From: Heliocybe sulcata
Taxonomy: Eukaryota; Basidiomycota; Agaricomycetes; Gloeophyllales; Gloeophyllaceae
Reading direction: 5' to 3'
Assembly: GCA_004369045.1 (NCBI GenBank)
Contig: ML213503.1
Location: 1,769,121 to 1,833,120, forward strand
DNA length: 64,000 bases
A program made the position numbers and the translations under genes. Each line of letters starts with the position of its first letter. Within the stretch, counting starts at the first letter, position 1. The notes under the pieces are model-generated. The model did not search any database, was not told the DNA's origin, and saw nothing but the letters and a program-made list of their open reading frames with translations. Of this stretch, positions 9,099-16,685 are shown piece after piece.

Positions 9099-9368
9099 AG
9101 CAGAAGTTCAACTGCGAGCGCGATGCAGAAAGTTGGCAGGCTCTGAGCAGAGTGTTCCAGGTGGAACGCGGCGAGGTGGAACGCGGTAGTGGCACAGCAC
9201 GCGCCGAGGTCACGAATCTGGAGACGCGTCAATTTCTCAACCGTAGGCACGTGTGGCGCGAACCAGCCACAAACTTTCGGACTAGCTACCCAATAACGCG
9301 CTCGCGCAGATAGTGGCCCATGTATGCGAGCGAAGTATGATTAAGACGAGGCAGTCATTCCAGTATAT

Positions 9369-11224
9369 CTACTGACGATATGCCCGCAGCCTCCTCCGCA
9401 AAGAGATCCATCTACGTACGCCCTTACGACGTCTAACTAGCGTCTTTGACCATTTCGATCTTAGCAGTCGCCGGTACCGAGTCCAATCTCCCTTTCCACC
9501 TCCGAGCATGCTCTCCTGCAGCCGCAGCGCCTGCCGCTGTGCATCACCCGGATCTTGTTCTGACAACATCCTGTCCACGATGTCCATTCGACCTTCTTTT
9601 CTGGCAAATGACGCGACGCGTCGGCGGACGCGCTCGTCCACCACTGACGGAGTCCAGCGTGACTTATATCTCTGCGTGATGTGGTCGGCGATGCTTCCGC
9701 AACGGCGATACCGCTTCACAACCCGCAGCAGAAGAGATAGAGTTGTGGAAGTGGGTTGAAGGCCCAGCTCTGGCCGTAAAGTGAAGAGTTCTTCTATCGC
9801 CTCGCGGAGAGCAGTGTATGCTGACATGTCCACCGATTTGACAGGGTGATGTACGATGTGCTGGTGGATGATGTCCAGACATCCACTTCGGTCTTTGTCG
9901 GTTAAGCTCGAGGGGAGGCTCTCCAGAAATGAACGTGTTACTTGCATCGCCAACGACGACATCCCCGAGCGCAATTGACTAGAGACCATCATTCGGATAG
10001 CATACGGCTGCATCAGTAGATGCTCGTGCGACGTTACATCGACCTTGGACCAATGCTGCACGAGCAAATCGTATCTTGCAGCTTCAACCTCTACGGAAGG
10101 TTGCAGTTCCGACATTGCCGGAACTAATCTCCCAGTTTCATTGTCCTTTTTCCTGAATGCCCGGGCGTGCGTCGGCCCAAGGAATTCAAGCCAAACCGGT
10201 AGAGGTATCGAAGCAGTTTTCGCAGTAACCTGGTCCCAAGCGTCCTGCCACCTCCCGATTTTCACCATCCAGCGAGCCCATAATTTCCAGGTCTCCAGAT
10301 TAGGCTCCAGTCTTTTCATGCCCATCTGGTACATGAGCTTTGGCACAGTTCCGTAGGAAGCATGCTCGATAGAGTGCTGGAGCAACAGATTAAATGATCG
10401 TGCGGACTGCAGTTCATAATATGAATTATGGTAGTCGATTAGGCGTAGTACACTTGGTGGTCTCGTGTAATGCATGAGGAACAGAAGACGTTGCTGGAGG
10501 TGAGCAGTAGTCTCCGGGAAAGGAGGGGAAGGCGATGGAAGAGTCGCTACAGGTCCAGCGTCGGCATTAGGAAGATGCATACTCTCACCAGTTCCGACGT
10601 AGCGATCGCCCTCTGGAACATGACGGCCGTCAGGCATTGATGTGAAGTCAGTATCCACGATGCAAGACCCGTCCCCGGGAGCCTGAACCAGTGATAAACG
10701 GGCCTTCATCTGTGACAGATGCTCATGGGGACAGCCAGCAATCGCATGAGTGGAACTCGCTGGAGATGATGAGTGGCGCGTGCCTCTGGATGTGGAGGGC
10801 GAGGGTAGTTGCCCGTGGACCGCGTTCCCTGCAGTTCCGTTTGCAGGGACTGGCGCTGAGGAACAAGACTGAGGTTCGGGAGGACTTGCTCGCCTCGGCT
10901 CGGGTATATCTGGATGACGCGACGAGGATGGTACTCTTAAAACATGAAGACGGTCATTACGGGGATCCTGAGCATCCAATTCAAGTAGGACAAGACATAC
11001 AGCGGTGAATTTTCCCCGGTGTCTCCATATGAATCCGTTCCACCGGCCACTGCCAACTTAATAACAGGAGCAACTGTGCCTACTCGGCGACACCCAATTA
11101 CCCTGGAGGTAGGACGGCTCTGAGCTTGTACATGTCGAGTCCATGCACGACCAGCAGCCACTTGGAAGATGTTGCCGAGGGTACCCGCTACGCTCCTATG
11201 CTTCGGGATAGCATGTTTGAGCAT
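9369..11224 (-). CDS. PPR/helical-repeat-like protein, probably mitochondrial
   Basis: The main exon is a 536-codon open frame (9369-10979). After a disordered Pro/Ser-rich N-terminal third it becomes helical, with PPR-like pairs such as SFNLLLQHSIEHASYGTVPK, then LETWKLWARWMVKIGRWQDA and YTALREAIEELFTLRPEL, and it ends in a very basic tail (RRWISLRRRLRAYRQ). No catalytic motif is visible. An upstream exon at about 11102-11224 reads MLKHAIPKHRSVAGTLGNIF and further Arg/Ala/Ser-rich sequence without acidic residues, a good mitochondrial presequence. It joins in frame through an intron of about 127 nt (donor GTAATT, acceptor CAG before GATCCC). Without that exon the start would be 10979. Fungal proteins of this kind usually act on mitochondrial RNA or ribosomes; that role is inferred only from architecture. 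Confidence 0.6.
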
Positions 11225-11666: not shown

Positions 11667-12949
11667 CTAAGACTCCTCCATAGGCTGCCCCATGCGGCCG
11701 ACAAGCCACCCGACTTTCTGAACCCACCGGTCACGAACCTGCCGCATAACTTCCAAACCATTGCCTTTGGCTTGGGCGAACGCATCCAAGTCCCGCTCCC
11801 ATGTACGCACTGTCTCCTCCCGGTACATGCCGCCCTGCCTATTGACGGACTCGTCTATATGGGTTACCCATGTTTTCCACTCCTCGGTCAACCGTATAAG
11901 GAGCAAAGGAACGAGCGCCGATTGCGTGAGGGTTGGCTGATCAAGGACGTGTGTGGTCAGAGCAGAGAGAAGTGTGAACACCTCCGACGGGTGTAACTTC
12001 TCCTTCTGTTGAACAGGTGGGGACGTGGCTTGCATTATCGGGTGGCTCCCGGATGCCACGTAGGAGAAATAGGGCAAGTATGTCGAAGCGGTAGAAACGA
12101 AGGACTCAATGTGTGGTCGCAGACGGGATAGAACATAGGAATCTCGCATCCCGCCATTTGAGCTCTCGGATTGAGTATGATTGGAAAACTGAGAGGGCTG
12201 TTGAGAGAAACCGAATCCCAAGCTGCTCTGGCTCGGACCTGCGCTGTGTCTGGTATGACCGATTCCGCCGGAGAAGGTAGTGAATGAGGGGGAATGCGAG
12301 AAGGACGACGTGTTGGAGAAGGGATATGCATCGTGGAGCTTCTTGGCGGCTTGCGCCAGTGCGTGGAGAGCGGTGTCGAGAGTAGGACGGGGGATGAGAG
12401 AAAGAATGACAGGTTTCAATGACGGTTGGGTATTCAGGAGGGAGGTGATTAACGGCAGAAGAGATTCCGATGGCAAGCTCGCTACCATGGTTGACATTAG
12501 CAGACTGCCATACTCTAATGCAGAGGCGACTCACCCAGCAAGACCCCAACATCAATATCATTTCCATCGGAGGGTGCTGCGCCCTTTCCATCTTTGCCTG
12601 GTTTCTCGGCCTTGCCACCTCCTTCTACTGACATGCCCATCCGGGCTCTCTTGGGTACGGCTCGCCTCGGTCGCTCCGGGGTAGGACTCCTGTCCATACT
12701 CTCATCCCTGGGCTGCCTGTTCTCGTCCTCCTCAGGCTCGTGTCTCCGTTTGGATCCTCGTTGAGGAGAAGGCTGCACGACGGCCGCTGCAGGCTGAAAG
12801 GCCGATAATTGTCCATTGGAAGGTCGATTCAGGCCCCCGGCCGACGACGACGACAAGAGGCCAAAGCCAAAGCCAAAAGGCGAAGGCGCCTGCTTGACAG
12901 GGCCTGCATGAAAGTCGAGGTGGGGGTGGGGTGGCATGACATAGGCCAT
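11667..12949 (-). CDS. STS1: Sts1/Cut8-type tethering factor for nuclear proteasomes
   Basis: Two exons, 12535-12949 and 11667-12481, with a 53-nt intron (GTGAGT...TAG), give 409 residues. The junction restores DVGVLLASLPSESLLPLI, the hallmark of the Cut8/Sts1 family. Upstream lies a Pro/Ser-rich N-terminus with basic clusters (GSKRRHEPEE and RRAVPKRARMG) that can serve as a nuclear localisation signal and ubiquitinated Lys region. Downstream is the all-helical domain (SLLNTQPSLKPVILSLIPRP and LTEEWKTWVTHIDESVN). In yeasts the protein anchors 26S proteasomes at the nucleus, and Sts1 is imported by Srp1/importin alpha. An importin-alpha gene and the proteasome subunit Rpn2 lie 12 and 15 kb away. 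The match in motif order and length makes the call firm. Confidence 0.9.
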
Positions 12950-13842
12950 AGCTGATGGTGATGGTTGTGGTCAGCCTCGAGTCGCGCAAAGGCGGCCTCA
13001 TTAGTGCCTTCACCAAGCTTGCCCTAAATTGGTCACGTGGTGTCCTGCCTTATGAACTGCTGGAGAAATTTGTTCCTTTGACCGCGTTCTGCTCTTTGCA
13101 CCCTCGTCCGCCGGGCTCTACCTCGTACGTTCCATGCCTTTCTTTTCTACGGTGACGAGAAAAATATGAATCGCTACTTCGAAGCCACTGTGCTCATGAA
13201 TTTCACTTTATACCCAAATTTCTGAGTCTTTCCTGCCGGCTCAAGTCTCATCCACTGACTTCCTGTTCCAAAGGACCGACGGTCGAACTTGATATCAGTG
13301 GTGAGTTCAGGTTTCTTCTTATGTTGGTGATGAACAAAATAGAAGTCAAGCCCTGATCCGTCTCAAGGACGGGTGTTGATGAGTATACCATGCTAATACT
13401 GATCCTATACGTCCATCGATGTCCTTTCGAAAAGCTAACGTCGATTCACAGGACATATTCCGTACCCTGTTCGTAGGCCATAGGTATGTCGAACACTCCT
13501 CGTTAGATCGAATGATTATTCTCTTCTACTCGAGATTTCCGAACGACGCAGTCTCAGGATTGTTTGTCGTTAAGAGGATTTCTTGTCTTCAACCTAATGA
13601 TCTATGAGAGCGTATCGCAATTGACATTGTGACTGAACACATCATCTTTAGACTGTAGATCAGCCTGGCCGTAACGCGCGCCAAAACAGTAAAAGAGGTA
13701 TCTAGTCGTCCTATTCATGTGCATTATTCTACAGAGTATTGCAAGAAGTTCCATTGTATGTGCTGTATGCTAAATCAATCCGAATATTACAACGTCTATA
13801 TCACTATACCTGTCGAAGGAATGGCGTAAGAGAGTCAACCAG
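12950..13842 (+). ncRNA. Probable non-coding snoRNA host transcript
   Basis: This stretch between the STS1 start and the CAS1 stop has no believable protein frame, yet the plus strand shows intron-like spacing. Interval 1 runs 13125-13273 (GTACGT donor, CTGAC branch, AAAG end). Interval 2 runs 13301-13451 (GTGAGT, CTAAC, CACAG) and carries the snoRNA listed separately. A possible interval 3 begins with GTATGT near 13482 and ends at CTTTAG near 13651. The first two are about 150 nt, far longer than the 50-60 nt introns of the protein genes here, as expected for snoRNA carriers. The exons between them are only about 27-30 nt. Exact ends of the transcript are not determinable. Transcription probably diverges from the STS1 promoter. 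Confidence 0.45.
13327..13402 (+). ncRNA. Box C/D snoRNA, snR53-like, guide for 18S rRNA
   Basis: A box C (GTGATGA, 13327-13333), box D' (CTGA, 13353-13356), C'-like TGATGA (13377-13382) and box D (CTGA, 13399-13402) lie in canonical order over 76 nt. The 10-11 nt immediately 5' of box D (13388-13398) are complementary to the conserved 18S sequence ATTAGCATGG. The fifth base from box D opposes the A of ATTA, the nucleotide methylated in yeast as Am796 under guidance of snR53. A further 11 nt after box C (13334-13344) complement TTCTATTTTGT, which lies just downstream in 18S rRNA. The element sits inside a predicted intron (13301-13451) with its D box about 33 nt before a CTAAC branch site. 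The terminal stem is weak. rRNA comparison is from memory. Confidence 0.72.
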
Positions 13843-16685
13843 TCATGCTGTCGGCCACAACACGTTCAACAACCACATCAGTCCAAGTCCACCAAGCACC
13901 CTTGTCTTCAGTCCAGGTTTCCACCCGTCCGCAAACAGCTTAGATCGCGTAGGCGATGAAGTGGTAGCCGAACTCCCGTCCGCCAGTCGATCCGCCCAAC
14001 TCGGTATGCGTCTCATCGTACCGTCGGATTCAGAAGCTTCCTGCGCCTTGCCTGGCTCGTGCAATGAGTCTGAGACCAACGGGATCTGCTCTGGTCGTGT
14101 CGCAGATGATTCCGCCGTAGTCGAGCTCGTCGTTGGCAGTGATTTCGGCTCATTACCGCATATCCATGCAGTGATCTCTCCCGTAGCTTCTGCCACAAGG
14201 TGGCTGACGTAGACGAACACAATCGTCGTGATCACCATGTTCGTCAATCTCCACCTTGTAGCCGGAATGACGATCAAGATTCCCTTAGTGTCAGCGGCGA
14301 GCCAAAGGTGGAACTGGATGACGAAGGTCTCCAGTGAGCATCGACCTATGAACGCGAAGAACCGAGAAGAAGCCGAGCGCAAGATGACACTGGCATTTCG
14401 CAAGACGACGAACGCCCCGATAGGCAGGAAGGAGATGTAGGGATGCCAGGTGTTGTAGACAAATTTCGAGGGCTGAGTGAGCTCGAATATCATGTACCAA
14501 AGGAGCACGAATGCCGAAAGGCCCAAGCTAGTCTTGAAGGCTAGTGGCCATTGGGGGTGTTCCGTGAAATGATGCTCACGAATCTTGATTGTAGCCAGCG
14601 CAGTGAGCATCCCGAAGTAGACAACCCATAGATCTAAGTTAACCCGGAACGCCCATTCATCCGCGGACCAATGTATCGCGCACGTCCTTCGGAGGATGTC
14701 GAACAAGGACCGCAGAAGCCACTTCTCGCGCATGAACAGAGAGATCAGTCCGGCAGACGCGAAAATCTTGCCAAGCAGGAAAGCCATGTTGTCGTTGTAC
14801 CGAGATCCAATAGCCATGGTCGCGTAGATGATGAGGAACCACATGGATACCAGGGGAGCGAAGTAGTATGACAGGTAGTCCGTGTTCATGATATATGACA
14901 GTAGGAGAGTATATAAGTTAAGGCGAATCATAACCTGTAGCAGAGCTCTGATTAGCCGTCCGCACGTAGAACAGAATCTGTGCTCTTACTTGAGCAATGC
15001 GCTTGAAGCCGAAGTCGGCTTTCTTCGCGTAGAATGTTGTATGGCCATAGCCGGTCATAAATAGGTATGCTGCTACTAGCACGCGTATGGGATTGTATAT
15101 ACCGGAAATCTTGGAAGCCCCCAGGTAATGATATATGAGGATAGCCACTTTCGGCGGAGATGTCAGTAAATGAGCGCTACGAGGGGCAATACAGCATACC
15201 TTGCATCCAGCCTTTCCACTCATCTGTCTGTTCTCGATTCAGAAACCCGAGGTCCTTGTCAGACCGCTTCAGCGTGCCCAGACCAGCGGCTAACGCTAAT
15301 AAGCTGAAGGCCACGAAGCTCAGAGAGTTGAACTGCTTCTGCTCTTTCAGCCAGAAACCTGTCCTGTCAGCCATGTATATAAGGCACAGTGAGCCGCTGT
15401 ACATGAGCAACGACTTGTTCTCCTCCAAAACGGTGGTAACGGCGGACATTGTATATCCTACAAAGTATTAGTCAATAAGTATCGGTGCAGATAAGTTGCA
15501 CAGCAAGCTCCTACCTTTCTCATACCATGCCCGGGCGAACATGCATGGACCCAAGAAGAATATAAAGGCAAGGAAGGCCAGGTATACGAATGACGGCCAA
15601 GGGTATCTTCGACAGCACGTCTTATCGAAGGGGAACTTCTTGGGTAGTGCATCGTTGCAGCGAGAGTTCAGCAGTATGTTGGCCTGGATTTTCACAACAT
15701 CATCCGAGAAGTGCAAGCCGTCATCAGTGCGTGACGGATCCAGCATCAGATTAAACACAGCTGGGTACGAAACGGGCATCGGTGGTCGATTAGGATAGAA
15801 CAAACGAACGGTATCACTAGATGGAGGATTTATGCGATGGTATAAATCAGAATTCATGGCATCAATGTCTGCCATGCGCATCGTGGCTGCCCGCTCCCGG
15901 GTGAGTTTGGCGGGCACAACCTCCTCCACTGGCAGCATGACTATCTCGTCTGCTACTAGCGATGGAGCAAAGGAAATGCTGTTCAGCACCTTCTCCATGT
16001 TCGATTCCCAGGCGGGAAGACCACCGGAGCTCTCAGAGTAGCGCAAGTACCACAGCCCAGAACCCAGGACCAGGAGCGCAGGTTTGGAATGAGGGGACAG
16101 CCTATTGGAAGCACCTGACCCGAGCCCAGACACCAGGATATCCGTCACTCGGGTAGAGTTCAGGAAAGGGTCCCAATAGAATGATAGTCGTGTGCCTGAC
16201 TTTGCGACTAGAGTGTGGTCTGCGTGTTTCTGCTCGTCGTCAGGGGGAGAAGTAGGCAATGCGCCATCGACGAGATGAGCAGTCTGGAAGAACAGTTTCC
16301 GAGTGACGGAATCGCCAATGAACAGGACGTCCCGACCGGAGAGACAAGATGAAGCATCCTTGGGGCCATACGAATGCATCATGCAGCCTGTAAGAGATAT
16401 CATAAGTCTTTCACACCGAGACTGTGCACCACACATACCATCTGGCTGCCAGTTCCGATGCGTCTCGTCCAGGAATCGCCCCTTGCTCAAGAGCGCACCA
16501 CAGCGCATGGGATCGAAATAGTCTGAAGCCTAGGTCGGCACTTGAATGTATCATTCGCAGAAGGAGAACTCACCCAAGAGAACATATCGCAGAAGACCGC
16601 ATATCAATGCTATAGCCAGAGCTAGCCTTGACGCATAGTACATCCATAGCGGATTCAAAGAGAACGAGAGCCGTCTCGGAGGCAT
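13843..16685 (-). CDS. CAS1: Cas1-type sialate/glycan O-acetyltransferase, multi-pass membrane protein
   Basis: Six exons (16574-16685, 16439-16522, 15515-16387, 15200-15457, 14990-15147, 13843-14934) give 858 residues. The N-terminus has one signal-anchor helix ([18 protein letters not shown]). A luminal PC-esterase/GDSL-like domain follows, with RNWQPDGCMMHSY and the nucleophile block [14 protein letters not shown], and a late DGLHFSDD that supplies the catalytic Asp and His. After [18 protein letters not shown] comes the 10-TM acyltransferase region ([40 protein letters not shown]). In Cryptococcus, CAS1 is needed for O-acetylation of capsule glucuronoxylomannan, and in animals CASD1 acetylates sialic acid. 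Intron 2 is 51 nt with no in-frame stop, so a retained form would also translate, but the spliced form restores the family motif. The acceptor sugar in this fungus is unknown. Confidence 0.9.

Follow-up and report, generated by a model that had tools for sequence, protein, structure and literature searches.

Stable box C/D snoRNAs are bound by fibrillarin, Nop56, Nop58 and Snu13. In yeast, the 18S rRNA methylation Am796 is assigned to snR53 (PMC5199042), and a table in PMC3511168 makes the same assignment. Yeast snR53 and plant snoR53Y (RF00338 and RF01279, clan CL00080) are alike in their target base, the 18S A796 equivalent. The Neurospora crassa homologue of snR53 is CD11, an intronic snoRNA of 79 nt, and its D' guide is listed with both 18S-Am793 and U6-Am47 as targets (PMC2780460). 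A guide shared by 18S rRNA and U6 snRNA thus already has a listed precedent. The CD11 table gives mgU6-47 as the human counterpart, and we infer from the common guide that Neurospora U6 Am47 is human Am53. More than half of box C/D snoRNAs are reported to engage in accessory base-pairing, forming another helix with rRNA near the target (PMC5389607). For crosslinking in yeast, PMC6171561 names snR53 as one of three guides that lacked stable, reproducible rRNA hybrids, and such data therefore show no snR53 pairing even in yeast. Some fungal snoRNAs are carried by non-coding hosts similar to UHG and gas5, with one snoRNA per intron and short ORFs (PMC2780460, PMC3596301); the snoRNA hosts described for Neurospora have ORFs of 159-267 bp (PMC2780460).

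We analysed a window of 64,000 nucleotides from the basidiomycete Heliocybe sulcata, in which Rfam gave no match at gathering scores. The sequence from 13327 to 13402 on the plus strand is very probably a box C/D snoRNA of snR53 specificity, carried in a 151-nt intron of a short host of low coding capacity and directed at 18S rRNA with accessory pairing, with U6 as a probable or at least possible further target. The features are collected in Table 1. A preliminary description of this DNA had placed boxes C, D', C' and D here, spaced as in a snoRNA of 76 nt, and all four were found at that spacing: box C agrees with RUGAUGA, box D is CUGA, and internal D' and C' boxes lie between them. The guide, of at least 10 nt, directly precedes box D. 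Its target base is opposite the fifth position from the box (D+5), and it forms 11 bp with the 18S copy designated L065 and 10 bp with the organism's own U6. In the predicted fold there is no clear terminal stem beside boxes C and D; by eye, the flanks offer a G-U pair, two mismatches and four pairs.

Table 1. Features of the snoRNA locus, in window coordinates.
Feature	Position	Strand	Basis or remark
snR40-like C/D element	13148..13227	+	Rfam RF01201, 24.2 bits, below gathering
snR40-like box C GTGACGA	13152-13158	+	
snR40-like guide TATACCCAAATTT	13209-13221	+	
snR40-like box D CTGA	13222-13225	+	
Candidate host intron 1, GTACGT ... CTGAC branch 13254-13258 ... CCAAAG, 149 nt, weak acceptor	13125..13273	+	relaxed scan
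Candidate 27-nt host exon between both snoRNA introns	13274..13300	+	inferred from intron scan
Candidate host intron 2, GTGAGT ... CTAAC branch 13435-13439 ... CACAG, 151 nt	13301..13451	+	strict intron pattern
Probable box C/D snoRNA core, snR53 specificity	13327..13402	+	box pattern, guide match, simulation
Box C GTGATGA	13327..13333	+	sequence
Accessory element ACAAAATAGAA, complementary to 18S 825-835 (yeast numbering)	13334..13344	+	match and duplex energies
Box D' CTGA	13353..13356	+	sequence
Predicted hairpin between D' and C', 8 bp, CAA loop, -10.1 kcal/mol	13356..13374	+	fold
Box C' TTGATGA	13376..13382	+	sequence
Guide CCATGCTAATA	13388..13398	+	18S A796 equivalent by D+5; first ten bases also fit U6 ATTAGCATGG
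Box D CTGA	13399..13402	+	sequence

The 18S reference was a set of four bacterial genome records (L062, L063, L064 and L065) that contain eukaryotic 18S rRNA, presumably as contamination. The guide CCATGCTAATA pairs with ATTAGCATGG of 18S, which is present in all four copies because the search pattern required it, and TTCTATTTTGT is present in three of the four. In L065, whose 18S begins at 2050, counting puts A796 opposite D+5, exactly the yeast position at which the guide had been proposed to aim; the corresponding counts in the other three copies are 787, 800 and 775, as expected of other species. The second complementarity that had been noted after box C was also borne out, the accessory element ACAAAATAGAA matching 18S 825-835, and its order along the snoRNA relative to the guide suits antiparallel pairing on one 18S stretch. 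The focal element thus resembles yeast C/D snoRNAs with accessory pairing, as described in general terms in PMC5389607, in having a potential second helix close to the target. The full stretch from box C to D' pairs with L065 18S 819-835 with one bulge (-16.6), which places D'+5 on U822. We do not claim U822 as a D' target, since the part of 18S concerned varies among the four copies.

The organism's own 18S rRNA presumably carries the site as well. A DNA search of its assembly with the L065 18S found only 18S 1070-1307, at the end of contig C19, where Rfam calls SSU rRNA, and did not find the target region. The contig stops within this fragment (578285-578522 of C19, or 9285-9522 of the excerpt L067), and the sequence preceding it is without a match to L065 18S. 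Neither the accessory 18S target (with up to one mismatch) nor the 18S 3'-end motif (with up to two) was found in the organism's genome, and searches of viral contigs with an 18S and a 25S motif were empty. A search of the genome with 400 bases from the start of the L065 large-subunit part likewise gave no match; having no positive control, it shows little.

The combination of features at 13327-13402 is rare. Counting both strands, the window has a single instance of the four-box pattern with a loosely defined C', compared with an average of 0.02 in each of 200 simulated order-1 Markov windows, a figure that is somewhat generous since the pattern was drawn up after the element had been seen. 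A 10-nt 18S guide at box D beside the four boxes occurred in none of the 200 Markov windows. The accessory match was scored against a 201-nt stretch of 18S (696-896) chosen by us. It was equalled by 44 of 20,000 shuffles and by 11 of 20,000 19-mers from the window, the latter count being conservative because the sampled 19-mers may contain the focal element itself. A 10-nt guide match alone is not significant. Two CTGA sites in the window have at least 10 nt complementary to the targets, and box C is perfect at the focal site only. A CTGA at 1346 on the minus strand follows a 10-nt match to 18S 1123-1132, adjoining the yeast Gm1126 site, and its box C, 104 nt upstream, departs from the motif at one base; this match is probably due to chance. 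The presence of two such sites in one window could suggest that the focal element, too, is a fortuitous resemblance within an ordinary intergenic stretch, but we find this hardly credible given that boxes, a guide to a known methylated base, an accessory helix, a long intron and a second snoRNA-like element all occur together.

Across the genome, CCATGCTAAT is found at 55 sites, compared with 21 for the reversed control. Three of the 55 have CTGA within 3 nt, and boxes C and C' lie upstream only at the focal site. A second genomic CCATGCTAATACTGA, on the minus strand of contig C7 near 1105608 (L036), was set aside as it has neither box C nor C', as was a site with CTGA 3 nt past the motif (L051), which has no boxes. 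If the 18S and U6 bases are both methylated in this organism, the focal element is the sole candidate found with the exact ten-base guide together with boxes. These counts bear on the idea that the element is a decayed or unexpressed copy whose working gene lies elsewhere or is absent from the assembly. The lack of a clear terminal stem and the low Rfam scores fit such a pseudogene, and, as the assembly yielded only a minor part of the rDNA, other loci could be absent too. However, the element has kept all four of its boxes as well as its guide and accessory stretch intact, and none of the 54 other CCATGCTAAT sites is flanked by boxes C and D, so that we judge a pseudogene quite improbable.

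The Rfam models relate the element to two known families. When only 13201-13660 was searched, the top match was mammalian snoU6-53 (RF00377; 21.8 bits, E 0.022, cut-off 36), followed by bits by plant snoR53Y (RF01279; 19.5 bits, E 0.55, cut-off 43). Both emerge in this short-stretch search only and are absent from the whole-window search to E 3, in which a match to sR44 at 12933-12982 (E 2.5) was taken as chance. When the genome was searched to E 10 with the yeast snR53 model, RF00338, none of the 62 candidates scored, out of 1429, gave a match. The guide core CCAUGCUAAU followed by CUGA is common to the focal element and the Rfam consensus sequences of both snoR53Y and snoU6-53. Within the snR53/snoR53Y clan, the guide core of the snoR53Y consensus is that of the focal guide, whereas the element scores far under the snoR53Y cut-off. 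The snoR53Y guide aligns to the D' half of its model, in contrast to the focal guide at box D; this comparison of layout is with plant snoR53Y. In snoU6-53 (also MBII-28), guide plus box, CCAUGCUAAUACUGA, is identical to that of the focal element, but by position in the Rfam alignment this guide is again in the D' half. The terminal box D of snoU6-53 has no focal counterpart, there being no CTGA between 13403 and 13451. Neurospora CD11, likened here by its table description rather than its sequence, is similarly intronic with 18S and U6 as targets. In PMC2780460 the D' guide of CD11 is tabulated against 18S and U6 and its D guide against 26S A356, whereas the focal element has its 18S/U6 guide at D, and its C-to-D' stretch carries the 18S accessory match.

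The genome of H. sulcata contains at least four U6 genes, and ATTAGCATGG, to which ten of the guide bases are complementary, is present in all four that were found. The copies each read GATTAGCATGGCCCC and contain GATTAGCATGG. The U6 base opposite D+5, with 10 bp of guide pairing, is at the position that we take to be human A53 (human numbering). Because ATTAGCATGG is common to the two RNAs, a guide that looks specific to 18S can in fact be ambiguous between 18S and U6. The focal RNA could accordingly be mainly a U6 guide, a functional counterpart of mgU6-53, with the 18S match arising from ten bases shared by chance. The presence of GATTAGCATGG in every U6 copy found, the rank of snoU6-53 as the best sub-threshold Rfam match with its identical guide and box, and the near-equal duplex energies (-15.2 with U6 and -15.9 with 18S) are all consistent with this. 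Nevertheless, we consider it unlikely: the accessory element fits 18S over 11 nt, whereas its longest exact partner in U6 is 5 nt; the guide forms one pair more on yeast-type 18S than on U6; and Neurospora CD11 is tabulated with both targets. By analogy with the CD11 entry in PMC2780460, both 18S and U6 are probably served, or able to be served, by the one guide of the focal snoRNA. A more specific arrangement, in which a single D guide for 18S A796 and U6 A53 has moved from the D' to the D half and an accessory helix available to 18S alone sets the sharing between the two RNAs, is put forward tentatively, as somewhat less probable than an even chance.

The element lies in an intron-like interval, and the signals that had been reported for it, GTGAGT at the start, a CTAAC branch and a terminal CACAG, were all recovered. 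This interval is the only strict intron pattern within 12900-13900 on either strand. Intron-like patterns in the window are commonest at 50-59 nt, with 31 found compared with a shuffle mean of 7.6, so that the earlier estimate of three times the normal intron length is close: 151 nt is nearly three times the peak and unusually long, as expected of a snoRNA-carrying intron. A relaxed intron scan gave a second candidate intron upstream, one among many alternatives, and this interval contains a further C/D-like element resembling snR40. The two elements sit almost identically in their candidate introns: the 5' splice site lies 27 nt from box C and the 3' splice site 48 nt from box D in the snR40-like element, and 26 and 49 nt in the focal one. 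The guide and box D of the snR40-like element, UAUACCCAAAUUUCUGA, are identical to the snR40 family consensus over 17 bases (TATACCCAAATTTCTGA). The 14 bases ending in its box D, ACCCAAATTTCTGA, occur once in the genome, and the reversed control does not occur.

The match of the upstream element to RF01201 scored 24.2 bits against a gathering score of 50, with E 2.2 in the window and 0.0068 in a 196-base search. In a whole-genome search with RF01201 it ranked second, at E 2.34, among five weak matches that all stayed below the cut-off. At the same limit, five of 14 control genomes also gave matches; given these, and with no match over the cut-off at home, the model alone proves nothing. We take the guide TATACCCAAATTT to be the one for 25S Um898. 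This putative target is based on the Rfam consensus together with the assignment of yeast snR40 to 25S Um898 and 18S Gm1271 listed in PMC5199042. A snR40-like element paired with a snR53-like one is not among the three fungal snoRNA clusters named in PMC3596301, and our search of the snR53 and fungal or basidiomycete snoRNA literature found no paper on such a pair. The seven snoRNAs named in a Pleurotus survey all belong to other families (PMC5040776). The preliminary reading of the locus as an intron-borne snR53-type snoRNA stands with respect to boxes, D+5, accessory pairing and long intron, and was incomplete in that it missed the fit to U6 and the snR40-like neighbour.

The candidate host transcript looks to have little coding capacity. 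With both candidate introns removed, the longest ORF beginning with Met is 31 codons if transcription starts from 13000 and 62 codons if it has started by 12955. The 62-codon frame begins at 12955 and would enter the candidate host exons (12955-13124, plus strand). With 13484-13651 also removed, and transcription from 13000, the longest such ORF is 23 codons. Unspliced frames of 66 and 62 codons exist near the focal element, in a stretch that the preliminary description had called empty to protein-based gene finders. The interval 13484-13651 on the plus strand (GTATGT ... TTTAG, 168 nt) was tried as a third snoRNA intron and rejected, having no snoRNA shape in the fold and no Rfam match inside. 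The short ORFs here and the 159-267 bp ORFs listed for Neurospora hosts (PMC2780460) suggest that the candidate host resembles UHG-like fungal snoRNA hosts, likewise with one snoRNA per intron, its splicing being predicted from sequence signals. On both sides the locus is flanked by minus-strand genes, for a Cut8-domain protein (11667-12497) and a Cas1-type acyltransferase (13843-14931). The frame 12515-12949 has no Pfam match.

Together, these features suggest how the element may act. The host transcript would be expressed and spliced, and the snoRNA intron would be debranched and trimmed down to a snoRNP. The guide before box D would then pair with ATTAGCATGG of 18S and position the methylase on the yeast A796 equivalent, while the stretch after box C would pair with 18S about 22 nt downstream, forming a second helix that would steady the complex with 18S. 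U6 snRNA may also pair with the guide, at the human A53 equivalent. The focal snoRNA is a sound new example of a known box C/D type. With it, a window that is empty at Rfam thresholds gains a probable rRNA methylation guide with accessory pairing, and likely a host gene for two snoRNAs. If double targeting is true, the accessory helix would provide a straightforward way to test how a ribosomal and a spliceosomal RNA share a single guide.
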